A stretch of DNA of 57,070 bases from a bacterium (GTDB lineage: Bacteria > Actinomycetota > Acidimicrobiia > Spongiisociales > UBA5794): assembly GCA_024228555.1 (NCBI GenBank), contig JAAETI010000993.1:1-57070 (forward strand). The letters are read 5' to 3'. A program made the position numbers and the translations under genes. The notes beneath the pieces were generated by a model, which saw only the letters and a program-made list of their open reading frames with translations, did no database searches and had not been told where the DNA came from. How positions within the stretch are numbered: the first letter of the stretch is position 1; each line of letters starts with the position of its first letter. Shown here one piece after another: positions 8,191 to 36,574 of the stretch.

Positions 8191-9563
8191 CCAAGCGCAC
8201 GGTGGAGGAAGGCTGCCATCTCCGCTCTGGTGACAGGGGAACTAGGGCAGAAGCGTGAATTGGCCGGTGGGTTGCACCCTTTGGTCACACCGGCAGCTGC
8301 CAGCGATTCGATGTTGGGCTCGAATATGGACCCATCATCATCGGTGAAGGGATCACCCGAAGCCGGCCCGTAGCCGAAGGCACGGACCAGGAAGGTGGCC
8401 ATCTCCGCCCTGGTCAGACTCCGGTTGGGGCAGAACTGATCGTTGGCCGGCGGATTGCATCCCTGGGTGATCCCGGCAGCCGCCAATGCTTCGATCTCGG
8501 CCTCGAACACGGAGTCGTCGTCATCGACGAACCGGTCTCCAGCCGGTGCTGCAGGTAGCGACAGTGCCCTTCCGAGGAACGCCGCCATTTGGCCGCGAGT
8601 CACTCCGGAATCCGGGCAGTACCGGTCGTTCGTCGGTGGGTTGCATCCCTGGGTGATCCCGGCCGCGGCTAGCCAGATGATGTCGGCCTCGAACACCGAT
8701 CCGTCATCGTCGCGGAAGGGCGGCTCAAAGAACTCGTCGTCGTCACAACCCACCCGGTCCGGCCCAAATGCCAGTGAGTCAAAGTGAATCTCGTTGTCAA
8801 CAACGGACTCTGTACCGCCGTAGTAGATGTCGAACCAGAAACTCTTGATGTCGATATCGGCTTCATTGGAGCGGCGAAAGGCGAGATCGCTCTTGGCAAA
8901 GGCAGCTGTCCCGTCCACCCAACCTTCCAGCACCCCATTGTGTGCACCCGGTGTATTGAGATCGATGTGACCCTCGACGCAATACCACTTGCCGTGATCC
9001 AGCGTTGCGACCGATGGGTCCCATGTCCAGATGTCTCCGCGATTGGAGGGACTATCGAGGTGATAGACATAGAAACCGATCAATGTCTTATCGTCAGGCC
9101 CGTTGGGGTAGCCCGGCTGCCCAAAGCTTGGATAGGTTCTCGAGAAGAGCATCCGAGCCGAGAAACAGGGTTCATCCGGTGTCGAAGGGCGACCGCCCAA
9201 GCAGTTATAGGTATAGAGACCGCCAACGCCCGGTAGCTTCCCACGATTTGGTGGCTCGATGTAGAAGCCGCTCGGGAACTTCACCCAATATCGCCACCAC
9301 AGCTCTTCAGGGTCATCCATAGCGTGCTCAGAGAAGTTCCAGTGCCCGCTACTCCCCCAGTGTTGCCCCGTGGGGATCGGCGAAAGCAATCCGCTCCCAG
9401 AGTGCCCCGCAGGCAGCGGCTGCATGCCCCAGGCACCATGGGAGAACACGTCTTCGGTGCCGTCGGCAAACGACTCATCCAGATATGCATTCGAGGTGTC
9501 TGCAACTGCCGGCACCAGTCCCAGCAGCACAAACGCCGCCGCCAATACGAGGACTCGTCTCAT
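8187..9563 (-). CDS. Secreted polysaccharide-lyase-like (PL14-type) protein with three SLH-like repeats
   Basis: 458 residues from the ATG at 9563, which has AGGGAG upstream; an earlier TTG at 9578 is less likely. A signal peptide (RRVLVLAAAFVLLGLVPAVA) precedes a domain of about 250 residues with the beta-sandwich pattern of PL14-like alginate or glucuronan lyases: ELWWRYWVKFPSGF, RGKLPGVGGL, ARMLFSRT, GFYVYHL, HGKWYCVEGHIDLNTPG and GVLEGWVDG. Three SLH-like repeats with GCNPPxNxxFCP end the protein. I infer an enzyme anchored at the cell surface that binds or cleaves an acidic polysaccharide. The lyase assignment is from pattern only; catalytic residues were not mapped. Confidence 0.75.
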   Translation of the reverse strand: MRRVLVLAAAFVLLGLVPAVADTSNAYLDESFADGTEDVFSHGAWGMQPLPAGHSGSGLLSPIPTGQHWGSSGHWNFSEHAMDDPEELWWRYWVKFPSGFYIEPPNRGKLPGVGGLYTYNCLGGRPSTPDEPCFSARMLFSRTYPSFGQPGYPNGPDDKTLIGFYVYHLDSPSNRGDIWTWDPSVATLDHGKWYCVEGHIDLNTPGAHNGVLEGWVDGTAAFAKSDLAFRRSNEADIDIKSFWFDIYYGGTESVVDNEIHFDSLAFGPDRVGCDDDEFFEPPFRDDDGSVFEADIIWLAAAGITQGCNPPTNDRYCPDSGVTRGQMAAFLGRALSLPAAPAGDRFVDDDDSVFEAEIEALAAAGITQGCNPPANDQFCPNRSLTRAEMATFLVRAFGYGPASGDPFTDDDGSIFEPNIESLAAAGVTKGCNPPANSRFCPSSPVTRAEMAAFLHRALG

Positions 9564-33728: not shown

Positions 33729-33791
33729 TTGTCGACCTGGGCCGACAGACGGCAACGATAGTCCATTGGCGATGACGACGGTTCGCGTCTT

Positions 33792-33841
33792 CCCCCCTCC
33801 TCGAGGCCGGAGGCTTTCGATCCTCCCACCAGGGGAGGATC
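33792..33841. repeat. Third, diverged copy of the structured repeat (two hairpins)
   Basis: A CCCCCCTC lead is followed by a stem AGGCC-GGA-GGCTT and then by ATCCTCCC, loop ACCA, and GGGGAGGAT with one extra G. This is the layout of hairpins A and B in the tandem copies at 34771-35037. Here a T has replaced a C in the stem and an A replaces the matching G, so pairing is kept. The second half (hairpins C and D) is absent. It lies between tRNA-Pro and nnrE. Confidence 0.55.
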
Positions 33842-33849
33842 GCTGCGCG

Positions 33850-34591: not shown

Positions 34592-34738
34592 TCAGATCTT
34601 GTCGATGACCCAGCCGACAGTCTGGATCAAGCGCCAGCCCAGGTAGAGCGCGGCGAGCGTGATAATGATCATGAATCCGATTGGCCAGGTTTCGTCGTCG
34701 GTCTCGGTCTCGGGGGTCGTCCCGGGGCCGTCATCCAT
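34592..34738 (-). CDS. Small single-pass membrane protein, 48 residues
   Basis: The ATG at 34738 has GGAG nine bases upstream. An acidic, outside-type or soluble head (MDDGPGTTPETETDDETW) is followed by one helix (FMIIITLAALYLGWRLIQTVGW) and a short tail. It ends just before nnrE and follows the repeat block. No family is known to me. The clear split into head and helix, and the tight spacing to nnrE, support a real gene. Confidence 0.55.
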   Translation of the reverse strand: MDDGPGTTPETETDDETWPIGFMIIITLAALYLGWRLIQTVGWVIDKI

Positions 34739-34770
34739 GGGGTTGCACTCCGCGGAGGGGGTAGAGCCCG

Positions 34771-34906
34771 TTCCCCCCCTCGTACGAGCTTCGCTCGTCC
34801 GATCCCCCCACAAGGGGGGGATTACCCGAAGACCTCGTGTTCGAACCACAAGCCACTCCCTCGAGTTCACCTTGCGAACTCCCAAGGAACCCACACCGTA
34901 GGTTCC
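34771..34906. repeat. Structured tandem repeat, copy 1 (hairpins A-D)
   Basis: Four hairpins in order. A: ACGAGC-TTC-GCTCGT (34784-34798). B: six C, loop ACAA, seven G, flanked by AT on both sides (34802-34822). C: GAGTTCAC and GCGAACTC around CTT (34863-34881). D: GGAACCCAC and GTAGGTTCC (34886-34906). The unit recurs immediately downstream with a period of 130-132 bases. It contains no gene. It fills the gap between the acyl-CoA carboxylase gene and the small membrane protein. Confidence 0.75.
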
Positions 34907-35037
34907 CCCCCTCGTACGAGCTGCGCTCGTCCGATCCCCCCACAAGGGGGGGATTGCTCAGAACCTGTTGAGATTCACTGGTCCTTCCCTGGAGCTCGCT
35001 TGGCGAGCTCCCAAGGAAACCACTTTGTGGGTTCCCG
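34904..35037. repeat. Structured tandem repeat, copy 2 (hairpins A-D)
   Basis: The same four hairpins. A: ACGAGC-TGC-GCTCGT (34916-34930). B: six C, ACAA, eight G (34934-34955). C: GAGCTCGC-TTG-GCGAGCTC (34993-35011). D: GGAAACCAC and GTGGGTTCC around TTT (35016-35036). In stem C a T-A pair of copy 1 is a C-G pair here, and an A-C mismatch is repaired to G-C; only the loops and unpaired spacers differ freely. It ends two bases before the stop of the carboxylase gene. Confidence 0.75.
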
Positions 35038-35038
35038 G

Positions 35039-36574
35039 TCATACCGGGGGGACGCCGTGGCGGCGGTCTGAGAAGTGGCGAGTCTTTCGGGAGGCGTAGG
35101 AGAGACGCTCGATGATCTCTAGACGCAGGTCCTCTGGCTCCACAACGCCGTCGATGATGATTTCGGAGGCGACTCGCATCAGGTCGACGTCCTCGTTGTA
35201 CTCCGCCTGGCGTTCGGCGACAAAGACCTCTCGCTCGTCCTCGGGGAGTTCTTGGATCTTGTTGAAGTAGACCGCATTGACGGCAGCTTCGGGGCCCATC
35301 ACTGCGATCTCTGCGGTTGGCAATGCCAGCGTGGCATCGGGGCGGAATCCGGGGCCGGAGAACGCATAGAGACCTGCTCCGTATGCCTTGCGAACGATGA
35401 TCGACAGACGGGGCACCGTTGCCTCGGCGATGGCGGTCAACATCTTGGCGCCGGCCCTGATGATGCCTTGGCGTTCGACATCGGTACCGATCATGAAGCC
35501 GGGCACATCGGCAAAGAACAGCAGAGGGATGTTGAATGCATCACACAGCCAGATGAACCGTGCCGACTTGTCGGCAGAATCCACAAAAAGCACTCCCCCG
35601 AGATGATTCGGTTGCGACGCAACGATCCCAACAGGCTGACCATCGATGCGGGCCAGGGCGGTGATGACTTCTCGAGCAAACAGCTCCTTGATCTGGAGCA
35701 GGCTGCCTTCGTCGAAGATGCCTCGCAGAAAGTCGAGCATGTCGTAGACCGCAGTTGGCTCCTCGGGCAACACTTCGTCGGGCTGGCACTCGGGGTCTGG
35801 ATCAGTCCCCTCGTATCGCATCGGGAGCTCGCGATAGCCGTCGGGCAGGTACGAGAAGTAGAACCGTGCCCAGTCGATGGCCTCTTCGTCGGAGTGCACC
35901 AACACGTCGCCACAACCCGAGGTGGTGCAGTGCATCCTCGCCCCACCAAGATCCTCCAGCGTTGTCTTCTCCCCGATCACCATCTCCGCCATACGGGGAG
36001 AACCGAGATACATCGAGGCGTTCCCCTCGACCATGATCACCACGTCGCAAAACGAAGGGATGTAAGCGCCACCGGCGGCCGACGGGCCAAACAGACAGCA
36101 GATCTGCGGCACCCGGCCGGACAGACGCACCTGGTTGTAGAAGATCTTCCCTGCCCCCCGCCGACCCGGAAACAAATCGATCTGATCGGTGATCCGCGCC
36201 CCAGCTGAATCGATGAGATAGAACACCGGCAACATCTCGTCGTATGCGTACTCGAGGGTCCGGATCATCTTCTCGACAGTCAACCGGCCCCAGCTGCCGG
36301 CCTTCACCGTCGGATCGTTCGCAATCACCGCAACCGGACGACCATCGACGGTCCCCCGCCCCGTCACGACACCGTCGGCACCGTGCTCAGGAGTGACAGC
36401 GTTCGCCAGCAGCCCGTCTTCGACAAAGCTGCCCTCATCGAGCAGTAGCTCGACACGGTCGCGGACAAAGAGCTTCTTCTGCGTCTTCAGCTTCTCGTGA
36501 TGCCGATCCGGTCCACCGCGGCGAGCGCTATCCGCCGCTTGACGGAACCGCTCGAAGGGACCGGGTTCGCTCAC
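35039..36574 (-). CDS. Acyl-CoA carboxylase, carboxyltransferase (beta) subunit
   Basis: 511 residues, typical of propionyl-/acetyl-CoA or branched acyl-CoA carboxylase beta chains. Blocks: LFVRDRVELLLDEGSFVEDG, LIDSAGARITDQIDLFPGRR, FGPSAAGGAYIPSFCD (first oxyanion loop), SMYLGSPRMAEMVIGE, then in the C-terminal half LFFADVPGFMIGTDVERQGI and KAYGAGLYAFSGPGF. It transfers the carboxyl group from biotin to an acyl-CoA. The biotin-carboxylase/BCCP alpha subunit is not in the window. The GTG start overlaps the der stop by four bases. Confidence 0.87.
   Translation of the reverse strand: MSEPGPFERFRQAADSARRGGPDRHHEKLKTQKKLFVRDRVELLLDEGSFVEDGLLANAVTPEHGADGVVTGRGTVDGRPVAVIANDPTVKAGSWGRLTVEKMIRTLEYAYDEMLPVFYLIDSAGARITDQIDLFPGRRGAGKIFYNQVRLSGRVPQICCLFGPSAAGGAYIPSFCDVVIMVEGNASMYLGSPRMAEMVIGEKTTLEDLGGARMHCTTSGCGDVLVHSDEEAIDWARFYFSYLPDGYRELPMRYEGTDPDPECQPDEVLPEEPTAVYDMLDFLRGIFDEGSLLQIKELFAREVITALARIDGQPVGIVASQPNHLGGVLFVDSADKSARFIWLCDAFNIPLLFFADVPGFMIGTDVERQGIIRAGAKMLTAIAEATVPRLSIIVRKAYGAGLYAFSGPGFRPDATLALPTAEIAVMGPEAAVNAVYFNKIQELPEDEREVFVAERQAEYNEDVDLMRVASEIIIDGVVEPEDLRLEIIERLSYASRKTRHFSDRRHGVPPV

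Follow-up and report, generated by a model that had tools for sequence, protein, structure and literature searches.

The closest described counterparts of the repeats treated here are the PIT, BoxC and TM_ECO elements, in which a pyrimidine tract (Y), a short loop, a purine tract (R), a spacer and a further purine tract follow one another on one strand (Hoyne and Maher; Holder et al. 2015, PMC4666352). Close pairs of TM_ECO in E. coli always combine a type A and a type B element in inverted orientation, and the elements are intergenic and without strand bias (PMC4666352). For TM_ECO, neither work on duplex DNA nor in vivo DMS footprinting revealed a stable triplex, and RNA does not adopt purine-motif triplexes (PMC4666352). 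A comparable layout occurs in whalefall-1 (RF01762; Weinberg et al. 2010, PMC2864571), an sRNA in Rfam that its authors marked as "certainly" RNA and that comprises a hairpin (UCuCuCC-UuGG-GGaGaGA), a second hairpin and a conserved, supposedly unpaired tail (AGgGuGAGGAC).

Here, we analyzed a double repeat in a 57,070-nt stretch of DNA (the window) from an acidimicrobial draft genome (G000; 5.4 Mb, 1027 contigs, 97.7% complete). A preliminary description had presented it as a tandem 130-base repeat of four covarying hairpins, A to D, that suggested selection for folded RNA or a cruciform and not for protein.

Composition of the double repeat

The double repeat was confirmed at 34770-35036, with two units that each carry the described hairpins. 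The supposed 130-base unit, however, consists of two independently dispersed elements in tandem, AB and CD, and the site is an AB-CD-AB-CD mosaic of two separate dispersed element types, not one single structure (order AB+ CD+ AB+ CD+; a further module, E, is absent there). The features of the site and its surroundings are as follows:

33780-33846, plus strand: degenerate third AB/E-type copy (CTTCCCCCCTCC, hairpin, GATCCTCCC, ACCA, GGGGAGGATC)
34592-34738, minus strand: gene for a small single-span membrane protein, downstream flank of the insert
34730-34734: GTCAT (minus strand ATGAC), left copy of a putative target-site duplication
About 34735-35037: insert of about 303 nt between the carboxylase and membrane genes, from comparison with relatives
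34770-34823, plus strand: AB copy 1, with outer C-tract Y1 (34773-34779), hairpin A (34780-34802), inner C-tract Y2 (34804-34809), loop ACAA (34810-34813) and G-tract R (34814-34820), then an ATT tail
34862-34907, plus strand: CD (F) twin-hairpin element, copy 1, with hairpin C (34862-34882), CAA and hairpin D (34886-34906)
34902-34955, plus strand: AB copy 2, with Y1 (34905-34911), hairpin A (34912-34934), Y2 (34936-34941), loop (34942-34945) and R (34946-34952)
34991-35036, plus strand: CD (F) twin-hairpin element, copy 2, with hairpin C (34991-35011), CAA and hairpin D (35015-35035)
35038-35042: GTCAT (minus strand ATGAC), right copy of the putative target-site duplication
35039-36574, minus strand: acyl-CoA carboxylase carboxyltransferase-type gene, upstream flank of the insert, named from the preliminary description and its own sequence

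On the minus strand, AB copy 1 reads Y - loop - R1 - hairpin - R2. The AB copies in the window are 98% identical at a spacing of 132 nt, and the CD copies 78% identical over 51 nt at a spacing of 129 nt. Several details of the preliminary description were borne out: between copies of stem C a T-A pair is replaced by C-G and an A.C mismatch by G-C, stem D has nine positions with a single mismatch in each copy, at different places, and a third copy exists as the degenerate AB/E-type element at 33788-33841, within 33780-33846. Hairpin B has the reported C6 stem and ACAA loop in both copies, but its other arm is G7 and not G7-8. The double repeat folds much more strongly than chance would allow (minus strand, z = -7.7; plus strand, z = -5.9; none of 200 shuffles was as good), and the chance expectation of the core 29-mer in the window is 0.00 occurrences. 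Elsewhere in the window, 84-nt coding-type repeats with 67-75% identity lie at 43-126 and 8244-8696, three of them spaced 183-186 nt.

Dispersal and stem covariation of the AB and CD elements

A search of the genome found the AB and CD parts as separate, dispersed copies. In G000, 28 copies scored strongly with the covariance model of AB (60-92 bits) and a few others weakly; the model also gave 15 matches in a congener (G014), in line with the further copies that the preliminary description had anticipated, and other genomes of the family contain elements of AB architecture, each with a consensus of its own. In a pattern scan of named genomes, the AB-like form was also found in the Acidimicrobiia MAGs MO_207.B6, UBA6912 and MAG_Ve_Sed_51 and in the Alphaproteobacteria MAGs Marinicaulis and Loclat_bin-14143. 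The CD model gave 53 matches in G000 and 1-6 in each congener.

AB consists of a C-tract, a hairpin, a second C-tract, a short loop and a G-tract, with the consensus (TC)ACGTCYTCA-CCCCCC-TCGtACGGGC-TCC-GCCCGTcCGA-T-CCCCCC-ATCAA-GGGGGG-ATTGC. Hairpin A has 24 cells with two-sided changes compared with 8.3 in shuffles, and 95.6% of its cells are paired. CD consists of two hairpins (consensus GGAGTTCGC-nnn-GCGAACTCC-CAA-GGAAC....GTTCCC) with 26 such cells compared with 8.1 and 96.3% of cells paired, so that the covariation noted between the units of the window extends across many copies of both elements. The outer C-tract, which is unpaired in the modeled AB fold, is invariant in 27/27 aligned copies. 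Search selection accounts for part of this invariance, and more weight is therefore given to the mirror test described below. All 27 aligned copies have the order Y - loop - R - loop - R on the minus strand, as does the E family, and the second loop is 23-24 nt long and hairpin-forming in the window copies and the alignment. A count of wobble pairs did not separate the two strands as candidates for folding (G.T 7 versus A.C 4). At one AB locus (L007; G000 C519:60657), a full element is directly followed by a duplicate of 67 nt that contains half an AB element, and the break lies inside hairpin A, as in replication slippage.

Absence of the elements from orthologous sites

At all three sites that were checked, comparable sites in relatives lack the element. 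At the window site, the stop of the carboxylase gene and the start of the membrane gene overlap as ATGA without an insert in G013 and G017, and in G018 the insert is likewise absent and the two genes are adjacent (GTATAACAATGG). The ends of the insert are approximate because these relatives are only about 70-80% identical; the two GTCAT words around it are a candidate 5-bp target duplication. On the minus strand, a 103-codon open frame (34731-35042) begins where the membrane gene started ancestrally (ATGA), crosses the entire insert with no stop codon and ends over the start that this gene has now (ATGGATGA); the insertion could therefore leave translational coupling intact.

The E-AB pair at own site C237 is absent from G013 and G018, and the orthologous region of G014 (L243; C95:10440-10620) holds a distinct three-tract element with identical orientation, which represents either a hot spot or an old, fast-diverged element. 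The mosaic at own site C486 is absent from G015 and G018. Between the AB sites of G000 and those sampled from G014, no flanking-gene matches were found.

Mirror symmetry of the outer tract

An outer tract that serves as an alternative Watson-Crick partner of the G-tract has to repeat the inner tract directly. If the outer tract instead provides, on the other DNA strand, a purine-motif third strand in antiparallel orientation, it has to be the mirror image of the inner one. Pure C/G tracts, including those of the window copies, are mirror and direct at once, and the test was made with patterns whose tracts contain one off-centre T (e.g., CCCCTCC..CCTCCCC..GGGGAGG) in 395 genomes of the class. 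The mirror pattern gave 275 matches in 26/395 genomes and the direct version 91 in 15, of which 71 came from a single genome (G074) whose tract CCTCCCCCTCC fits both; without G074, the sums from the search tables are 196 mirror and 20 direct matches. With the reversed asymmetry, 124 genomes of the order contained 47 mirror matches in 8 genomes and 12 direct matches in 5, and 5 of these 12 also satisfy the mirror form. Backwards-read patterns for the first pair of searches yielded 11 and 10 matches. Mirror matches come partly from related families and copies are not independent, so the genome counts (26 versus 15; 8 versus 5) are the fairer comparison. In both polarities, then, the third tract is more often the mirror of R1, as an antiparallel purine-motif strand would be, than its direct copy. 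The middle hairpin is enriched (93/218 versus 20/218 in shuffled sequences), with genome-specific hairpin sequences. In mirror register, 11 of 13 letters opposite A in the third tract are A or T, but this small count is biased by the many loci fetched with mirror patterns and carries no weight in the argument.

These counts bear on a two-state Watson-Crick switch, in which the G-tract would alternate between the inner and the outer C-tract. The C6/C6/G6 composition of AB permits such alternation, the minus-strand window copies even favor pairing of the G-tract with the outer tract in silico, and TCG/TCAA forms a partial extension; in the non-homopolymer relatives, however, the outer tract is a mirror and thus mismatched to the G-tract. 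Because of this mirror excess, a triplex third strand is favored over the switch, which we regard as very unlikely.

Module E and the mosaics

Module E (CGTCTTCCCCCTCCCGG-hairpin-CGCCCTCCC-ACCAG-GGGAGGGCTGC) has the three-tract design of AB and shares its CGTCTTC start. Wherever AB and E are neighbors (gap < 60 nt), they are in opposite orientation (22/22 pairs), often in alternating runs, so that AB/E mosaics show the alternation of oppositely oriented modules that is typical of BIMEs; the window site, which is without E, does not. A further recurrent element (CCCCCCTACCCC-hairpin-GGTACCTTCCCCCC-AAA-GGGGGG) with near-mirror tracts was seen in several genomes of the family (L023, L068, L077, L078 and L082).

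Short palindromes in intergenic positions, high copy number, inverted heterodimers and BIME-like mosaics are also what would be expected of classical REP/REPIN elements that owe their mobility to a RAYT transposase of the Y1 (HUH) type, which may since have been lost. The corresponding profile (PF01797) nevertheless had no match in G000, while the five control genomes were detected, and in the aligned copies neither GTAG nor CGTC adjoins the stem: CCG precedes hairpin B, and CGTC sits before the outer C-tract only. The three-tract architecture furthermore lies outside the definitions of REPs (PMC3733652), and we consider this origin quite unlikely.

Another account would regard the repeats as drifting debris whose fold is not under selection: template-switch (quasipalindrome) correction would keep the palindromes complementary, and slippage would multiply them. 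Template switching can yield two-sided stem changes, and local duplications of copies or part-copies do occur at L007, L030 and L012. Yet this leaves the mirror third tract, the conserved ACGTCTTCA flank and the strict AB/E polarity unexplained, and the unpaired tract and flank are conserved in independently founded families and across genera, which makes it an improbable explanation.

Gene context and relation to structured RNAs

Neighboring genes were called with a small codon-usage gene finder, and copies were collapsed to independent intergenic regions. All 28 strong AB copies are intergenic, in agreement with the view of the preliminary description that protein coding is not the reason for their conservation. 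For the 21 independent sites with both neighbors called (one further AB region had a single called neighbor and stands outside these), the pyrimidine strand is co-directional with transcription in 8 and opposite in 7, while 6 sites lie between convergent and 0 between divergent genes. With a split of 8:7, AB does not favor either strand with respect to transcription, and its absence between divergent genes makes transcription of most copies probable. The window site showed neither a promoter nor a terminator consensus, and no hairpin followed by a T run as in intrinsic terminators.

At the curated cut-offs of Rfam, the window contains matches to tRNA only, and the earlier statement that the repeat matches no RNA family holds at that level. 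It does not extend to architecture: in a permissive search, both window AB copies match the full whalefall-1 model with 15.6 and 14.8 bits (cut-off 37), the best score seen in G000 is 25.0 bits, and AB relatives score 28-36 bits, led by 36.3 (E 7e-6), 34.2, 33.4 and 32.8, although the cut-off was reached by 0/20 AB-like loci. Laid antiparallel on the R1 arm GGaGaGA, the whalefall-1 tail gives G.G, G.G, A.A, G.G, T.A and G.G plus one misfit, so that by hand reading of the printed consensus 6/7 triplets are of types allowed in the purine motif. On this reading, whalefall-1 looks like a relative in kind and may itself be a DNA repeat. A match to Guanidine-III (E 0.53) was rejected since CGGACGAG is not conserved among AB copies. 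In a separate region (L179, 1567-1682), the palindrome TGTCATCCCCGCGAAGGCGGGGATCCAG matches WsnRNA46 and FtrB of Rfam below the cut-off and resembles an Alphaproteobacteria CGTC-type REP rather than a small RNA.

The hairpins of the minus-strand transcript might still act as an mRNA stabilizer, a processing site or a whalefall-1-like small RNA, with RNA folding as the selected property. The strong RNA folding and covariation, the lack of AB sites between divergent genes and the standing of whalefall-1 as an RNA all point in this direction. Against it stand the equal use of strands, the missing promoter and terminator consensus, the scores of about 15 bits for the window copies relative to a cut-off of 37, and the mirror rule, which calls for a triplex of a kind that RNA does not form (PMC4666352). 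The AB repeats are therefore probably not regulatory RNA; we rate selection for RNA folding as rather unlikely, and the preference of the preliminary description for folded RNA was not upheld.

Interpretation

With a probability of roughly 60%, we read the site as a REP/BIME-like non-coding DNA mosaic in which AB and E would be intrastrand triplex elements of the PIT/BoxC/TM_ECO type with a hairpin as second loop. A mosaic of dispersed non-coding elements would have entered between two neighboring genes. In both AB and E, one strand carries a purine tract and two pyrimidine tracts, and the hairpin separates the latter two. When the DNA becomes single-stranded during replication, repair or transfer, the inner tract could pair with the adjacent purine tract, and on the purine-rich strand the second G-tract could fold back as an antiparallel purine-motif third strand, hinged at the hairpin. 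Most likely, AB and E pairs that face opposite ways both persist and spread as DNA that is selfish or promotes instability, no RAYT being encoded in the assembly. The dispersal, architecture and stem covariation of the elements, the mirror relation of the third tract, the even use of strands, the empty sites in relatives and the strict AB/E polarity are observed, whereas triplex formation in the cell, the mechanism of spreading and any host benefit are what we infer.

A broader proposal, which we put forward tentatively and think slightly more doubtful than credible, is that these repeats belong to a widespread, unnamed superfamily of DNA repeats in at least the Acidimicrobiia and Alphaproteobacteria, which encode an intrastrand triplex hinged at a hairpin and which, without a RAYT, move or amplify as heterodimers of strictly opposite orientation, with whalefall-1 as a DNA member and not an RNA. 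If these readings are true, the conserved unpaired tract in repeats of this design acts as the third strand of a triplex, and selection for triplexes can be tested from sequence alone by the mirror rule, a test that is absent for the known E. coli repeats. Three literatures would then be joined (PIT/BoxC DNA repeats, REP/BIME mosaics and an Rfam RNA), with the warning that covariation in dispersed palindromes can pass for non-coding RNA.

Comparison with known repeat classes

AB and the PIT/BoxC/TM_ECO elements share the single-strand order of Y, short loop, R, spacer and second R, are G/C-rich, dispersed and intergenic without strand bias, have a mirror-type third tract and occur as neighboring inverted heterodimers of two types. 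In AB, however, a variable hairpin (about 15-30 nt) takes the place of the 3-nt second loop, the tracts measure 6-8 nt instead of 9, and the elements occur in different taxa and with a conserved ACGTCTTC flank. The second loop exceeds the limits set for PITs both by Hoyne (0-10 nt) and in the ITxF search (1-6 nt), and AB is therefore called a variant and not a member of the PIT class.

With REP/BIME/REPIN, AB has in common short palindromes, intergenic location and mosaics of oppositely oriented modules, but it differs in that no RAYT was found, the GTAG tag is missing and a third tract is added. The CGTC-tagged REPs (PMC3733652) resemble AB in a stem with an AT base, a loop of 4-5 nt and no known dedicated transposase, whereas the CGTC near the end of AB is separated from the stem by the C-tract and a whole hairpin. 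The G-rich motifs of the archaeal Methanomicrobiaceae (PMC8044849) are likewise intergenic and combine G-runs with an adjoining C-rich tract, and an antiparallel triplex was seen with them in vitro; unlike in AB, no hairpin between the tracts is described, and a G-quadruplex is an alternative. Whalefall-1 agrees with AB in layout and length, with a Y hairpin with a 4-nt loop, a purine arm, a variable hairpin and a conserved purine tail, and differs in being filed as an sRNA from a whale-fall metagenome only and in its mixed CU/GA tract.
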